This document shows, piece by piece, positions 1 through 5,379 of a stretch of 37,972 nt of DNA. The translations under genes were made by a program, and so were the position numbers. Each line of letters begins with the position of its first letter. Position 1 is the first letter of the stretch. The stretch lies in assembly GCF_947366995.1 (NCBI RefSeq), contig NZ_CANBCC010000040.1, forward strand, positions 1 to 37,972. The letters are read 5' to 3'. This stretch comes from an uncultured Aquabacterium sp. (GTDB lineage Bacteria; Pseudomonadota; Gammaproteobacteria; Burkholderiales; Burkholderiaceae_C). The notes below the pieces were generated by a model, which searched no databases, was not told the DNA's origin, and worked only from the letters and a program-made list of their open reading frames with translations.

Positions 1-55
1 GCCCTGGCTCAAAATTCAATCGGCACGGTGGCTCAATTTTGAATCGGCGCCAACA
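1..55. mobile_element. Terminus of an IS21-family-like insertion sequence (partial)
   Basis: Two 19-bp near-identical direct copies lie at 6-24 and 30-48, spaced 24 bp and differing at three positions. Each has the form GGCTCA-(AT-rich)-AATCGGC. Multiple internal copies of such a GGCTCAAAATT-like box close to an end that finishes in CA (TG on the other strand, here at 54-55) are typical of IS21-family termini, where they are transposase-binding sites. The HsdR reading frame loses its character at this point. No transposase gene (istA/istB) is visible because the window ends, so the family assignment rests on the terminus alone. The exact boundary at 55 is an estimate. Confidence 0.6.
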
Positions 56-2998
56 GATGACAAAGTCGACCGACTTGACGTTGGTGGAGCGGTGCTCTAC
101 CCGATACTCGGCAGCATCTTCTCGCACGTCCAACACCGTGGTGGGCATGGGGGGCGGTGTGATGGGCCTCTCGGCCAGGCCGATGACGTCGCGCAGCGCT
201 TCACGCATGGCGTCCAGTTGTGCAAAGGTGGGTGATTGCCAGAAGGCGTCTGAGCGCAGCGTCTTGAGCTCGTTGGCTTTGGCGCGCACCGGGTTGAGGT
301 GCGGGGGCAGCCGGCCGATCCATTCCAGAATCGCTTCGCGTTGTGGGTTGGGCTTGCCTGGCTCGGCAATGGCTGCGGCTTGGGCCTTGGCCAGCAGCAA
401 GTCCCAACGCAAGGCATCGCCTTGGCCGCGCACATCCACCGCGCTCATCAAGGGGGCCACGGTTTCGGTCAGCACTTGCCGGGTGACAGGGGCGAACTGA
501 TGCACGAGCTTGGCGTCTCGAGCCTGTTGCACAGCCTGCCAGTTCTCGCGCACGGCAATGGCACCGTCAGGCAGGACCGCAGCGTCTTGCTGGAGTTGCT
601 GGGCCAGCAGGTCGAAGGCATGCAGATCAGAACGGGCCAGCGCCAGGGACGCCAGCTCAACGCGGGCCTCATAACGGCGCTGGGTGAGTGGCTTTGGAAT
701 GCTCGGCTCCACCTCATCCGCGTTCAGGTCGTGGAAGGCGAAGTTTTCCCAGTGGTCGAAGATCAAGAACTCGCTCTTGTCCTTGCCGGGGCCGAACAGG
801 TTCTTGCAAAGGCGCGTGCCGCGCCCGATCATCTGCCAGAACTTGACCTTGCTCTTCACCGGCTTGGCAAAGACGAGGTTCACCACCTCTGGCACGTCGA
901 TGCCGGTGTCCATCATGTCCACCGAGATCGCGATGCGCAGGTCGCCATGTGGTTCCTTGAACTGATCGATCAGGTCTTCGGAGCGTGGCTCTTTGGAGTG
1001 GATGACGCGGCAGAATTTGCCCGCGAACTGCGGGTACATCTCGTCGAACAGCTCAGCCATCAGCCGAGCATGGTCGATGTTGCGGGCGAAGACGATGGTC
1101 TTGCCGGGCAGCTGGCCGTCTGCATCCCGCAGGCCGTTGTCCATCAGGTTGCGCAGGATGACGCGGTTGGTGTCCTTGTTGAACACGGCGTCGTCGATCT
1201 CCTTGGCGTCGAAGTCCAGGGTGTTGGGGTCGATGCCTTGGTCTTCCAGTTGAGCAATCTGCTCATCTGACAGGTGTGCGGCCTTGATGCCGTCGCGCAG
1301 GAACTTGGTGGTGTGCGCCACCACGCGGAAGGGCACCAGGTTGCGGTCTGCAATGGCCTGCTCCAGCGGGTAGTTGGCCGTGGGCAGCTTGTAGTCGCAA
1401 CCGAAGAGGCGGCAGGTGCTGCGGCTGACCATCTCCACGGGCGTGGCCGTGAGGCCGACCTGGATGGCGTCGAAGTACTTGAACAGGTCGCCGTAGAGGT
1501 TGTAGATCGAGCGGTGTGATTCGTCCGCGATGATCAGGTCGAAGAAGCCGACATCGAAGGATTCGTAGTCGTTGATCAAGCCTTGGTAGATGCCAATGTA
1601 GATGCGCGCATCCATCTTGCCCACATCGTTGGCTTGGCCGATGACGTAGATGGGCTCTTGAACGAAGTCATTGAAGGCGTTTTTGGCCTGCTTGCGCAGC
1701 TCTTTGCGGTCGCACAGGAACAGCACGCGCTTCACCCAGCGGGCATCGATCAGCAACTTTGCCAAAGCAATGGCCACGCGCGTTTTGCCCGTGCCGGTGG
1801 CCTGAACGACCAAGGCGCGACGATGCCGCTGCGAGAAACGCTCAGCAACGCGGGTGATGCTTTCGATCTGGTACAGGCGGCCGGCGATGTTGGCATCGGG
1901 GCGCACGTCGGTCAGCAGGTTCAGCTTCTCGCGACGCTGGAAGCCAACGCGGTATTGCAGCGTGTCTTTGGAGAAGAAGCCGAAGACCGACCGAGGCGGA
2001 TAGCCACCCGCGTCGTCCCACACCCAGATGTCGTGGCCATTGGTGTAGAAGATCATGGGCCGCTGGCCGTGCACCTTCTCAAGAGCGTCGGCATACAGCT
2101 TGGCTTGCTCTTGACCGGCGCGGGCATCGACTTGCGTTTTCTTGGCCTCCACAACGGCGAGGGGTTTGCCGTTGTCGTCCCACAGCACGTAGTCGCAGTA
2201 GCCCTTGCCGGTTTGGGTGGGCTGATGCGGAACCTCGACTTCCTGGCCGACCGAGTCGCTTGACGCTGTGCTAGCTGGCACGTCCCACCCAGCCATGCGC
2301 AGATCGCGGTCGATCAGCCACTTGCGGGTGTTGTCTTCGCTGAAGCGCAGTTGGTTGGCTGCGGAGGCGGATGCTTGGCCTGCTTGCTGCAGTTCTTGTT
2401 CGGTGAGCGCGATGAACTTGTGAGCTGCTGGTGCAGAAGCGTGGTCTGCTGCGCGCAGGGCGGCGAGCTCTTCCAGCGCTTGCTTAAGGCGCAGTTCCTT
2501 GAGGTTGTTTTCTTCGGCCAGAGCCTTGGCCTTGCGCTTGAACTCTGCTTTGCTGTCGATACCTTCGACAGGCGGTTGCTTGAATTCAGCAAAGTCGTTG
2601 ACCTGACCACCGAGGAAGGTCACGTGCAGCCAACGGGCCAGCTGCCATGCCTCTTGAATGCAGCGAACGGCGTCAGCAGCTTCCACATCTTCACCGTGTG
2701 CGCCCCGATTACCCAAACGGCGAAGCAGGTGAAGTTTGTCCAGCACCAGGGGCTGAGCGACCGCACGGAAGCTGGCGTTGTTCAGCAAGTCCACGAAGTT
2801 GGACTGGGGTGCGCGCTGCAGCTTTAGCTTGACGTAAACGCGATCAACCAGGCGCTCTGCGAAGTTGCGCAGCTTGACGAGTGCGCTTTCGGGGTCGCGG
2901 TGAGCGTAGTGCTCCGCATACCCGCCCATGTTGGCGAGCTCCGGGTACACCGCACGCAGCGGCTCGAAGTTCAATGACGTCAGGTCTTGCATCAACAT
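1..2998 (-). CDS. hsdR: Type I restriction enzyme R subunit (HsdR), interrupted near its C-terminus by the IS end
   Basis: This is the motor and nuclease subunit of a type I restriction-modification complex: it translocates DNA using ATP and cleaves unmodified DNA. Reading from ATG at 2998, residues about 15-130 form a DUF4145-type helical domain (LGNRGAHG). A PD-(D/E)xK nuclease follows with D269 and E284-A-K286. Walker A ATGTGKT is near residue 400 and the DEAD-like box DESH is at 492-495. A C-terminal helicase lobe includes MIGRGTRLC. GGGAGGG at 3009-3015 lies 10 nt before the ATG and supports this start. About 981 codons are HsdR-like. At about position 55 the frame enters the IS terminus and stays open to the window edge, so the C-terminal domain that docks on HsdM is lost or altered. 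No HsdM or HsdS is visible. The gene is probably inactive, or at best a truncated helicase-nuclease. Confidence 0.88.
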   Translation of the reverse strand, partial: MLMQDLTSLNFEPLRAVYPELANMGGYAEHYAHRDPESALVKLRNFAERLVDRVYVKLKLQRAPQSNFVDLLNNASFRAVAQPLVLDKLHLLRRLGNRGAHGEDVEAADAVRCIQEAWQLARWLHVTFLGGQVNDFAEFKQPPVEGIDSKAEFKRKAKALAEENNLKELRLKQALEELAALRAADHASAPAAHKFIALTEQELQQAGQASASAANQLRFSEDNTRKWLIDRDLRMAGWDVPASTASSDSVGQEVEVPHQPTQTGKGYCDYVLWDDNGKPLAVVEAKKTQVDARAGQEQAKLYADALEKVHGQRPMIFYTNGHDIWVWDDAGGYPPRSVFGFFSKDTLQYRVGFQRREKLNLLTDVRPDANIAGRLYQIESITRVAERFSQRHRRALVVQATGTGKTRVAIALAKLLIDARWVKRVLFLCDRKELRKQAKNAFNDFVQEPIYVIGQANDVGKMDARIYIGIYQGLINDYESFDVGFFDLIIADESHRSIYNLYGDLFKYFDAIQVGLTATPVEMVSRSTCRLFGCDYKLPTANYPLEQAIADRNLVPFRVVAHTTKFLRDGIKAAHLSDEQIAQLEDQGIDPNTLDFDAKEIDDAVFNKDTNRVILRNLMDNGLRDADGQLPGKTIVFARNIDHARLMAELFDEMYPQFAGKFCRVIHSKEPRSEDLIDQFKEPHGDLRIAISVDMMDTGIDVPEVVNLVFAKPVKSKVKFWQMIGRGTRLCKNLFGPGKDKSEFLIFDHWENFAFHDLNADEVEPSIPKPLTQRRYEARVELASLALARSDLHAFDLLAQQLQQDAAVLPDGAIAVRENWQAVQQARDAKLVHQFAPVTRQVLTETVAPLMSAVDVRGQGDALRWDLLLAKAQAAAIAEPGKPNPQREAILEWIGRLPPHLNPVRAKANELKTLRSDAFWQSPTFAQLDAMREALRDVIGLAERPITPPPMPTTVLDVREDAAEYRVEHRSTNVKSVDFVICWRRFKIEPPCRLNFEPG
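6..48. repeat. Pair of 19-bp direct repeats in the IS end
   Basis: Copies at 6-24 and 30-48 read GGCTCAAAATTCAATCGGC and GGCTCAATTTTGAATCGGC. They match at 16 of 19 positions, and the mismatches sit in the A/T core. Such spaced repeats are probable transposase-binding sites. Confidence 0.75.
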
Positions 2999-3043
2999 CT
3001 TTGACAAGCCCTCCCTAGTTTGGTTGTCGTTGCAACCTGCTAA

Positions 3044-3059
3044 TGCGGGGGGCGTGCCA
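3044..3059 (-). promoter_or_regulatory. Sigma-54 (-24/-12) promoter upstream of hsdR
   Basis: The minus strand reads TGGCACG, four C residues, then CCGCA. This matches the sigma-54 consensus TGGCACG-N4-TTGCA with a perfect -24 box, the invariant GG and GC in correct register, and two mismatches in the -12 box. Transcription would start near 3033, giving a leader of about 35 nt with a good ribosome binding site (3009-3015) before the hsdR ATG at 2998. The site lies in the 73-bp gap between a sigma-54 activator gene and hsdR. No obvious enhancer repeats for the activator were found. Confidence 0.6.
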
Positions 3060-3071
3060 GCCCTTCCTGGC

Positions 3072-4604
3072 TCAGTTTGTCTCGTCCTCAGATAGGCCTA
3101 AGTTGGCCATTCGGTTACTCAGTGTCTGGTAGTTGTTGAAGCCCAGCAGCGCCGCTGCTTTGGACTTTTTGTACTTGGTCGAACTCATAGCGCGGCTGAT
3201 GTAGTGTCGCTCCACTTCATCCAAAACGCCTTGTAAATCAAAGCCTTGCCCAATGGGGCGATTCAAGATTCCATCGCCCGCACCTGTGGGCATCTGGATC
3301 AAAGCAGCTTCGATGTCTGCGCCGCTCATCTGAGCATCTTGAGCCCAGATGGAAGCTCGCAGCAGGGCGTGATACAACTCGCGAACATTGCCAGGCCAAG
3401 CGTGAGATGTAAGAACTTTTCTTGCAGACTCAGAAAGATCTTTATGTTGGACCTCGGGGTGGCTGGGAGCGTCACGATTGATCTCGGCCATGAACTGGTC
3501 CGCCAACAAGAGGATGTCATCTTCGCGTTCGCGCAGCGGAGGCAAGCGCAGGATGCCGACCGCGAGGCGGTGAAACAGATCTTCTCGGAAGCGGCCGGCA
3601 GCGACATCTGCAGCCAAGTCACGGTGGGTGGCGGCAATCACCCGCACATCGACCTTTTGGACCTTTGACGAGCCGACCGGGGTGATTTCCTTGGATTGCA
3701 GAGCGCGCAACAGGCGAACCTGGCTGTCCAGTGGCAGGTCGCCCACTTCGTCGAGGAAGAGGGTGCCGCCATGGGCTTCCTTGAAATGGCCTGGCCTGGC
3801 TTTGTCTGCCCCGGTGAAAGCGCCTTTCTCGTGTCCGAAGAGTTCAGCATTTGCGAGCTCCTTCGAGATCGCGCCGCAGTTGACGGCAACAAAAGGCTTG
3901 CCTGCTCTGGGGCTGCTTTCGTGGATCGCTTGAGCGAAGAGTTCTTTGCCTGTGCCGGTTTCGCCCAGGATCAGGACCGGGACGCTGTAAGCAGCAACGC
4001 GCTGGGCCAATGTGATTTGCTGTCGCATCGCTGCACAACGGTGAACGATGCAGCCAAACGCTGGCTGCACGGCGGGAGGTGCGGCCATGCGACCGATGCG
4101 CTCATCGGTGCGCTGAAGGTACTCAGGCAGGAAGTCACTGGCCAGGTCGAACTGGAAGTCGACAGACTCCAGCCCCTTCTCCTTGGAGGTCTGGATCAGC
4201 TTGGCTGGGAAGCGGGTGCGCGCCAGCATGATCCAGATGGAGGCCATGGCAGGCGTGCCGGGGCTGAGGTGGAAGGTCAGCTCTACGCCGCCCCTTGGAA
4301 GGCCAGCTTGCTGCAGTTCACGGGAGACCTGTTCATAGATCTCCGAATAGTTGATGGGACTGGAAAGGTCGACGCTATACAGATCGACCGCACGGGGTGG
4401 GTATCCCGTCTCTTTTTCCAACCACGCGCAGAACGCTTTGCTTCTGTCGAAGTTGTAGTTGGTGAGAAGGTAGACGCGGCTGTACTTTTTGTCCCCCTTC
4501 AATGCAGTCGCGATGGGGCCGAGCTCACCCTGGCGCTTGCCTTCTGCGCACTGGTGATCTGTTTCGCCAACCCAAGAAATCAACCACGATTCAGTTTTGC
4601 CCAT
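3072..4604 (-). CDS. Sigma-54-dependent transcriptional activator with N-terminal CARF-like sensor domain (RtcR-type)
   Basis: The protein has 510 residues in three parts. Residues 1 to about 165 form a CARF-like Rossmann sensor with the motif HLSPGTPAM (112-120), resembling the ligand-binding (N/H)-x-(S/T)-x-GT-x-x-M signature of Csm6 and RtcR CARF domains. Residues about 185-410 form an AAA+ sigma-54 activation domain with Walker A GETGTGKE (214-221), the sigma-54 contact loop GAFTGA (261-266), Walker B LFLDEVG (282-288) and an arginine-finger segment FREDLFHRL. The C-terminus (about 478-503) is a Fis-type helix-turn-helix. In RtcR the CARF domain senses RNA-derived ligands and the target is an RNA-repair operon. 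Here no rtcA or rtcB is adjacent; the downstream gene is hsdR, with a -24/-12 promoter between. The inferred role is signal-gated induction of restriction. The sensor's ligand is unknown. All AAA+ motifs are intact. Confidence 0.88.
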   Translation of the reverse strand: MGKTESWLISWVGETDHQCAEGKRQGELGPIATALKGDKKYSRVYLLTNYNFDRSKAFCAWLEKETGYPPRAVDLYSVDLSSPINYSEIYEQVSRELQQAGLPRGGVELTFHLSPGTPAMASIWIMLARTRFPAKLIQTSKEKGLESVDFQFDLASDFLPEYLQRTDERIGRMAAPPAVQPAFGCIVHRCAAMRQQITLAQRVAAYSVPVLILGETGTGKELFAQAIHESSPRAGKPFVAVNCGAISKELANAELFGHEKGAFTGADKARPGHFKEAHGGTLFLDEVGDLPLDSQVRLLRALQSKEITPVGSSKVQKVDVRVIAATHRDLAADVAAGRFREDLFHRLAVGILRLPPLREREDDILLLADQFMAEINRDAPSHPEVQHKDLSESARKVLTSHAWPGNVRELYHALLRASIWAQDAQMSGADIEAALIQMPTGAGDGILNRPIGQGFDLQGVLDEVERHYISRAMSSTKYKKSKAAALLGFNNYQTLSNRMANLGLSEDETN

Positions 4605-4633
4605 GATCAGATGATACGAGCAAGGTAAGAAAA

Positions 4634-4663
4634 TTTATCCCACAGATGCACGCTTCAGTTCAA
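4634..4663 (-). promoter_or_regulatory. Candidate sigma-70 promoter of the CARF/sigma-54 activator gene
   Basis: On the minus strand TTGAAC (4658-4663) is followed after 18 bp by GATAAA (4634-4639). This gives a start about 20 nt upstream of the ATG at 4604. The fit is moderate. The rest of the 4605-4853 gap holds no supportable gene. Confidence 0.35.
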
Positions 4664-4853: not shown

Positions 4854-5093
4854 TCATTGGCGCAGTGTCTTGCGTCGGCCTCCGGCTCGTGGGGTCCAAC
4901 GCTCCTGGTGCGAAAACGACTCCACAAGCCACCTCTCTAGCGCTGCCTGACTCCAGTACACCGCTTTGCCAATCCGCACGGGCGGCGGGAACAAGCCGTC
5001 CCGAACCATCGTTTCGAGGCATCGGGGAGAGACGCTCAGGTGCGCACAGACGGCATCTTTGGTAAGCAATGAGGGAACGTGACCTTCGGACAT
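4854..5093 (-). CDS. AlpA-family / excisionase-like helix-turn-helix DNA-binding protein
   Basis: This small 79-residue protein carries a MerR-like HTH_17/AlpA fold. LLTKDAVCAHLSVSPRCLE (9-27) is the DNA-recognition helix-turn-helix, followed by the wing PPPVRIGKAVYWSQAALERWL, a pattern typical of AlpA regulators and excisionases. In phages and integrated islands such proteins control integrase expression or act as directionality factors. Its position about 240 bp inside the tRNA-Phe attachment remnant supports that role. It is followed by a 249-bp gap before the sigma-54 activator on the same strand. The basic tail (TPRAGGRRKTLRQ) is compatible with DNA binding. Which promoter it controls is not shown; a perfect inverted repeat 49 bp upstream of its start is a candidate operator. 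Confidence 0.8.
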   Translation of the reverse strand: MSEGHVPSLLTKDAVCAHLSVSPRCLETMVRDGLFPPPVRIGKAVYWSQAALERWLVESFSHQERWTPRAGGRRKTLRQ

Positions 5094-5141
5094 ACGGCGA
5101 CTAAAGAATCTGGGAATGTGTGTATAGGTTCACCGCCGGCG

Positions 5142-5333: not shown

Positions 5334-5379
5334 ATTGAAAATCCGCGTGTCGGTGGTTCGATTCCGCCCCAGGCCACCA
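5334..5379 (+). other. 3' half of tRNA-Phe: attachment-site remnant (attR-type)
   Basis: The fragment starts in the anticodon loop (TTGAAAA, anticodon GAA at 5337-5339) and includes the 3' anticodon strand. The T arm has stem GGTGG/CCGCC and loop TTCGATT. The 3' acceptor strand CCAGGCC, discriminator A and encoded CCA (5377-5379) complete it. No D arm, 5' acceptor strand (GGCCTGG expected) or 5' anticodon strand precedes it, so it is not a functional tRNA. Breaking exactly at the anticodon loop is one of the known crossover locations of tyrosine recombinases in tRNA genes. The intact gene is presumably at the other island end. Confidence 0.8.

Follow-up and report, generated by a model that had tools for sequence, protein, structure and literature searches.

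Genes and Sites of the Locus

The window, that is, the whole stretch of 37,972 nucleotides analysed here, comes from an uncultured Aquabacterium sp. (contig NZ_CANBCC010000040.1). Close to one end of the window, a regulator gene is followed on the same strand by hsdR, which is cut at the contig edge. The genes and sites considered in this work are:

1..55, sequence that interrupts hsdR at the contig edge, with a 91% match to positions 33-82 of contig C94 (C94:33-82)
56..3007, minus strand, truncated hsdR with homology over residues 2-984 of about 1149 and an uncertain start codon between 2992 and 3007
3044..3059, minus strand, sigma-54 -24/-12 promoter-like site TGGCACGCCCCCCGCA, 12 nt past the regulator stop
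3072..4604, minus strand, CARF / sigma-54 AAA+ / Fis-HTH activator, 510 aa, intact; match to PDLC01995 RtcR_PspF2
3105..3224, minus strand, Fis-type HTH (residues 461-500); domain match
3236..3248, IHF-consensus-like site AATCAAAGCCTTG within the ORF, between the dyads and the promoter
3411..3423, enhancer-like dyad 2, AAGAA-N3-TTCTT, within the regulator ORF and spaced about 21 bp from dyad 1; site scan and conservation
3434..3443, enhancer-like dyad 1 within the regulator ORF, AAAGATCTTT; site scan and conservation
3534..4046, minus strand, sigma-54 interaction AAA+ domain (residues 187-357; GAFTGA at 261-266); domain match, motif from the translation
4155..4604, minus strand, CARF domain (residues 1-150; HLSPGTPAM at 112-120); profile and fold comparison
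4627..4638, lone dyad AAGAAAATTTAT ahead of the regulator start, 17.0 bits
4858..5094, minus strand, small protein upstream of the activator
5334..5379, 46 nt that repeat the 3' part of tRNA-Phe perfectly, matching C45:9688-9733; presumed island attachment repeat

The earlier note on this DNA had named hsdR as the adjacent target of the regulator and placed both inside an island. Gene order and HsdR homology bear out the adjacent target, in a truncated copy. Up to residue 984, the hsdR product shares 80-89% identity with five of six homologues (1135-1149 aa) and 44.5% with the sixth (L065); beyond this point it diverges into the sequence whose 91% match lies at the start of contig C94. It is thus an HsdR homologue, not a complete HsdR, with homology stopping at residue 984 of about 1149. 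The island context is also supported. A tyrosine integrase adjoins the intact tRNA-Phe on contig C45 (C45:10060-11433), and together with the 46-nt tRNA-Phe repeat of the window it suggests an integrated island, of which the repeat and its C45 counterpart are likely the ends. The repeated sequence at 1-55 is probably the end of a mobile element. An Rfam scan of the window gave nothing at gathering score. The small protein encoded at 4858-5094 has no Pfam match at 0.001; our impression is that it reads like an AlpA-type DNA-binding protein.

Domain Structure of the Regulator

The regulator matched the PADLOC profile PDLC01995 (RtcR_PspF2--CARF_AAA_HTH) with 643.5 bits, residues 6-504 aligning to positions 2-480 of 481. 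Judged by this match, it is a full-length member of the RtcR_PspF2 family, whose name reportedly comes from Makarova et al. 2020. The three parts predicted by the earlier note were all recovered: the N-terminal CARF sensor by profile and fold comparison, the sigma-54 AAA+ domain by domain match and the GAFTGA motif in the translation, and the Fis-type HTH by domain match to residues 461-500. A sequence search of the CARF part against solved structures gave no useful relative (two rows at E 0.27 and 0.34, and two isdG rows at E 0.06); the N-terminal assignment was settled by fold comparison. The nearest folds include CARF proteins bound to cA4 or cA6. No nuclease family was found in the regulator; beside the CARF part it contains just the AAA+ and HTH domains. 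The CARF part gave no match in a tblastn search of 50,697 phage records. Two RpoN genes are present in this genome.

The same note had likened the protein to RtcR. The likeness holds for the architecture and fails for the identity: the regulator scored 354.1 bits against the NCBIfam RtcR equivalog cut-off of 650, and no rtcBA was found in the genome. Neither RtcA nor RtcB was found in this assembly, and the E. coli positive control matched in both searches.

A Sigma-54 Promoter-like Site at the Regulator Stop

The consensus of sigma-54 -24/-12 promoters is TGGCACRNNNNTTGCW. Sites of the form GG-N10-GC were scored against this consensus, with a maximum of 16. In the window, the promoter-like site lies 37 nt ahead of the first possible hsdR start, and its -12 element is off consensus. 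Its score alone is not exceptional, as both strands of the 38 kb contain 10 such scores, itself included. The weight of the site therefore comes from its conservation across loci, not from its own score.

A scan of genome contigs confirmed 402 relatives of the regulator among 528 stretches, and the nearest 80 of the 402 were analysed. The locus set contained 87 loci, the window plus L039-L124. Four were dropped because no regulator ORF reached at least 300 bits (L042, L076, L103, L108), and four because less than 170 nt lay downstream (L074, L082, L113, L114); this left 79 loci for the promoter count. A set of 76 loci was obtained by removing three with regulator frames under 430 aa. L062 alone was searched to 600 nt.

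A promoter score of at least 14/16 was found within -30 to +170 of the regulator stop in 61 of 79 loci. At this threshold the background was 1.6% in dinucleotide shuffles, 1.2% in 6438 tiled windows of the same loci and 0/79 in antisense windows. As a control, 30 other sigma-54 activators were scanned, and three had such a site (L019, L030, L033). A score of at least 13 within 45 nt of the stop was found in 60/76 loci, at a median of 3.5 nt past the stop. There was no promoter call in seven of the 76, among which L061 and L116 carry strong ORF dyads. In L061, two small ORFs separate the activator from BrxL/PglZ defence genes, which are on the opposite strand and point toward it. Together with the enhancer-like sites described below, this conservation makes it likely that hsdR is under sigma-54 control.

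Enhancer-like Dyads within the Regulator ORF

Synonymous constraint was measured by shuffling synonymous codons within each gene. A peak was found at codons about 388-397, with z of 20.4 in the close HsdR group (n=21), 22.0 in the distant HsdR group (n=22) and 17.5 in the distant group with other partners (n=17). The peak was absent from the close VWA loci (n=10). These z values are inflated by relatedness (gene mean 1.1-3.7), which called for a second test with regulators thinned to less than 72% identity. After thinning, no codon window of the gene exceeded this peak in either distant group (n=9 and n=16), where it stood 5.9 sd over the gene mean. The group to which the regulator of the window belongs (n=9) gave 3.3 sd, with five of 501 codon windows higher, four of them at a second peak. 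It was again absent in the far-promoter VWA loci (n=5).

The constrained DNA under the main peak comprises two dyads with a spacing of about 20 bp; their sequences are approximately AAGAAAMTTTCT and AAGAAATNTTCTT. Scans for the exact dyad consensus were too strict, and profiles were used instead. When a profile built from regulators sharing no more than 55% identity was run across each locus, the top-scoring site was at the ORF dyads in all 46 HsdR loci, the window among them (26.1 against -10.3 for the next best site in the window), part of this score coming from conserved amino acids. The two-dyad site of the window is among the weaker ones, at 40.3 bits. A profile made from the coding-sequence sites also detects the double motif (score at least 5) ahead of the regulator start: 21/78 loci have it in the preceding 150 nt, compared with 0.04% of random windows and 0.19% of shuffles. 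In the window this region has one dyad at 17.0 and no double motif; the single dyad suggests a possible autoregulation of the activator.

The ORF dyads lie about 360 nt before the regulator stop and promoter; the usual sigma-54 enhancer-promoter distance is 80-200. Their presence largely follows the position of the promoter. Outside the training set, they were found in 14/14 loci with a promoter at most 45 nt from the stop and in 2/9 loci with a farther promoter; L062 and L120 kept them despite a far promoter. The held-out set contained 18 loci, of which L010 and L138 are the same DNA as the training loci L106 and L065, and L140 and L146 repeat L139 and L144, leaving 14 distinct loci. Twelve of these 14 had a promoter score of at least 14. 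The ORF dyads were present in 6/6 distinct loci whose promoter is no more than 10 nt from the stop and in 0/6 in which it is at least 80 nt away (8/8 and 0/8 among all 18, duplicates included). L142 had the dyads and no promoter, and L145 had neither. In the gaps of the nine far-promoter VWA loci, a dyad pair stands 95-108 nt before the promoter in six, and three have no pair. The upstream copies, the split by promoter distance and the pairs in the VWA gaps are good evidence that the ORF dyads are the predicted enhancer of the activator, to which it would bind.

A second synonymous peak was found in the close HsdR group at codons 453-460 (z 19; 4.4 sd after thinning). The DNA at this peak is CAAGGCTTTGATT, a perfect reverse match to the IHF consensus. 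A perfect IHF-like site in this part of the ORF was found in 12 of the 21 close HsdR loci and in none of the 22 distant ones, and also in the ORF of the plasmid loci L121, L123 and L124. Among the VWA gaps, those of L045, L050, L057, L060, L063 and L120 have a perfect site 40-41 nt upstream of the promoter, and that of L072 has one 31 nt upstream. These loci are seven of the nine far-promoter VWA loci; the gaps of L055 and L062 contain none. The IHF-like site is thus common in close relatives, not general.

Partner Operons of the Relatives

The earlier note had asked for a survey of genomes for pairing of the regulator with hsdR or other defence genes. A linkage of the homologues to restriction genes is supported, with HsdR downstream of the regulator in 42 of the nearest 80 of the 402 relatives. 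The other partners in this set were a VWA-PP2C-kinase-helicase operon (10 loci), a DUF3696-class ATPase (6) and a TPR protein (1); 10 loci had other partners, 7 were too short and 4 had no regulator ORF at threshold. Since these are the nearest 80 of 402, the shares do not stand for the whole family. Some assignments were made by hand. L112 was assigned to HsdR, as its HsdR frame overlaps the regulator; from Pfam, L080, L084, L093, L101, L107 and L109 were placed in the DUF3696 class, L080 and L107 by just shared AAA domains at E 0.001, and L091 with the TPR protein. The six plasmid loci examined (seven records matched, H6 left out) comprise four with HsdR, one of them broken, and two with VWA operons.

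The gene order R-M-S is found in 36/42 HsdR loci of the nearest 80 of 402. The distance between hsdR and hsdM varies from overlap to more than 2 kb; in part of the loci, hsdM may therefore have its own promoter. L062 and L073 have sister regulators and different partners; in L062, dyads are present both in the ORF and in the gap.

Several loci have other neighbours. In L142 (an IMG/VR contig), a GIY-YIG/DUF4357 protein and a 1240-aa reverse-transcriptase protein stand between the activator and an HsdR-like gene. L139-L141 (IMG/VR contigs classed as viral) contain close relatives of the activator followed by proteins without a Pfam match (three tested). In L058, the defence gene for a 2106-aa DEAD/MZB helicase is on the opposite strand and points toward the activator. 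L123 and L124 have a DUF3696 or similar AAA ATPase and a hypothetical protein after hsdS, and L144 has such a pair inside a helicase operon. This pair is of the same kind as the direct target elsewhere.

Proposed Switch

The regulator is probably a ligand-gated sigma-54 activator that works as a self-contained switch cassette for the defence operon downstream. This reading draws on the protein and its predicted fold, the gene order, and the conserved promoter- and enhancer-like sites with their joint movement. From these sequence features we infer DNA binding, sigma-54 dependence, a ligand and a defence outcome. In RtcR, the CARF domain is described as keeping the AAA+ domain inactive until the ligand binds (PMC7790460, PMC9650030). 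By analogy, a signal bound by the N-terminal CARF domain here would release the AAA+ domain. The Fis-type HTH would bind the two dyads about 20 bp apart, which in most loci examined are embedded in the coding sequence of the activator itself, some 360 nt ahead of its stop. The IHF-like site between the dyads and the promoter, found in more than half of the close betaproteobacterial HsdR loci, would bend the DNA. The activator would then open sigma-54 RNA polymerase at the -24/-12 promoter beside its own stop codon and drive hsdR. Given the R-M-S order, transcription would probably extend to hsdM and hsdS. The same cassette heads other defence operons, including Mokosh-like VWA-PP2C-kinase-helicase operons and DUF3696 ATPases, and the dyad copy upstream of the activator may serve autoregulation.

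A further reading, somewhat more likely than not, is that the cassette is portable. The activator gene would contain the enhancer in its coding sequence and the output promoter at its stop codon, and a defence operon of any kind that came to lie behind it would become inducible by the CARF signal. Under this proposal, the activator has exchanged its partner operon on many occasions, and the enhancer is lost from the frame once the promoter is displaced from the stop.

Alternative Explanations

The conserved ORF element might instead be another DNA or RNA element, such as an internal sigma-70 promoter for basal hsdR expression, the site of an unrelated regulator, or an mRNA element. Its AT-rich composition and its distance of about 360 nt from the promoter would fit such a role, and an internal promoter would be plausible if basal HsdM expression is needed to protect the cell. 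Further synonymous peaks of the gene lie outside the proposed sites: the distant groups have one at codons 189-196 (z 15.1 and 7.5), and the VWA group has one at codons 150-157 (z 9.8). However, the element is a dyad pair with its spacing of about 20 bp, and the same motif recurs upstream of the regulator start. The ORF dyads are mostly missing once the promoter is farther, where a pair then precedes the promoter by 95-108 nt in 6/9 VWA gaps. In addition, the double motif was absent from 30 other sigma-54 activators, the best score being 4.8. This explanation is therefore considered improbable. Still less credible is that the adjacency reflects mere company in defence islands, the activator controlling something else. 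The family is indeed sporadic, being found in 5/399 genomes of the order, the window's included, and in 0/11 other genomes listed for the bacterial family of the window's genome. Moreover, the partner class changes at least 16 times among 66 labelled loci on a quick tree of 79 regulators, close to the shuffled mean of 17.9. Yet in most loci, a sigma-54 promoter-like site is found between the activator and its partner, irrespective of the class of the partner.

In this genome, the system is probably a decaying remnant, in which the activator survives and restriction is dead, with hsdR cut and hsdM and hsdS gone. The hsdR homology ends at residue 984 of about 1149, and the frame runs into repeated sequence. 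The missing 3' part was not found in this genome assembly, in a search run without a positive control genome. Cognate hsdM and hsdS were not found in this assembly either, and the HsdM-like genes of the genome are just about 25% identical to the HsdM of the family. Against this, the assembly consists of 127 contigs, one of which ends exactly at hsdR, so that the remainder could be unassembled. Although the target is cut, the switch part in this genome (activator, promoter and dyads) looks intact by its sequence, and a remnant is compatible with the switch cassette as the best explanation. As for the signal, we lean to RNA ends with a cyclic phosphate, a reading with close to an even chance of being correct. 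A fragment of RNA ending in a 2',3'-cyclic phosphate, for example a tRNA half, would act here as it does with RtcR, whose CARF domain is reported to bind 5' tRNA halves ending in cyclic phosphate (PMC7790460). The Pfam RtcR domain is matched at E 0.01 or better by 40/49 homologous N-termini, but the window protein stays just below the cut-off (22.7 against 23.1). RtcR is also reported to need RtcA/RtcB in E. coli (PMC9650030), and neither was found in this genome. A cyclic oligoadenylate or a similar nucleotide, as with the CARF effectors of type III CRISPR, is an unlikely signal. The cA4- or cA6-bound proteins among the nearest folds would favour it. However, there is no clear Cas10 in the genome: five palm-domain matches were obtained (E 1.2e-5 to 8.2e-4), one marginally above the cut-off (27.4 against 27), and the E. 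coli control also matched. Oligoadenylates have been reported not to be the signal of RtcR (PMC9650030).

Relation to Known Systems

The central idea of the earlier note was a CARF regulator linked to restriction and controlling it through a ligand. The linkage stands; the novelty does not, as the association was published in 2014 and extended in 2024. Makarova et al. 2014 noted that RtcR-like CARF-AAA+-HTH proteins unlinked to rtc are often associated with R-M systems, and suggested that they may sense ligands and regulate RNA repair or DNA restriction (PMC4012209). The CoCoNuT paper of 2024 described type I R-M almost always directly after the CARF gene in superoperons, and proposed induction by RNA with cyclic phosphate ends (PMC11090510). 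The pairing of regulator and R-M is thus already known. Promoter or enhancer sequences at the regulator-target junctions were not found described in the literature searched, nor in the main-text passages of these two papers; the main text of PMC11090510 has a single unspecific mention of promoters.

Several known systems are similar to the one proposed here. RtcR_PspF2 (PDLC01995) shares the full-length match and the CARF fold, and its R-M linkage was noted in 2014 (PMC4012209). The RtcR homologues of type II CoCoNuT superoperons likewise have type I R-M directly behind the CARF gene (PMC11090510). RtcR of rtcBA shares the CARF-AAA+-HTH architecture, and at the rtcBA promoter of E. coli an upstream activation sequence is likewise combined with an IHF site and a sigma-54 site (PMC9650030). 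However, rtcR and rtcBA are divergent (PMC7790460), whereas the target here lies downstream on the same strand. The window regulator also differs from RtcR in falling under the equivalog cut-off, in a genome where no rtcBA was found, and in having an enhancer-like site inside its ORF. In comparison with Csm6, Can2, Card1 and Csa3 (type III CRISPR CARF effectors and Csa3), no nuclease domain was found here, and the predicted output is sigma-54 transcription.

Restriction-modification is usually regarded as always on. If the proposed switch is correct, type I restriction, Mokosh-like systems and DUF3696 ATPase systems would be inducible by one nucleotide or RNA signal, which raises the question of how cells keep their own DNA methylated ahead of induction. 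The predicted sites make the published suggestion of CARF control over restriction testable by reporter, footprint and mutation. To our knowledge, an enhancer kept within a protein-coding sequence is an unusual case; here it would be visible as synonymous constraint in several phyla.

Mokosh (MkoA/MkoB) is related to an alternative target of the cassette in relatives of the regulator, whereas the target in the window is hsdR. In the one case tested, the helicase of the VWA operon in L120 matched MkoA with 304.5 bits. The kinase, PP2C and VWA proteins of these operons, in contrast to Mokosh, are encoded by separate genes. In L054, the activator lies between a Mokosh-like operon running leftward and an R-M operon running rightward, and this position suggests that one activator may serve both.
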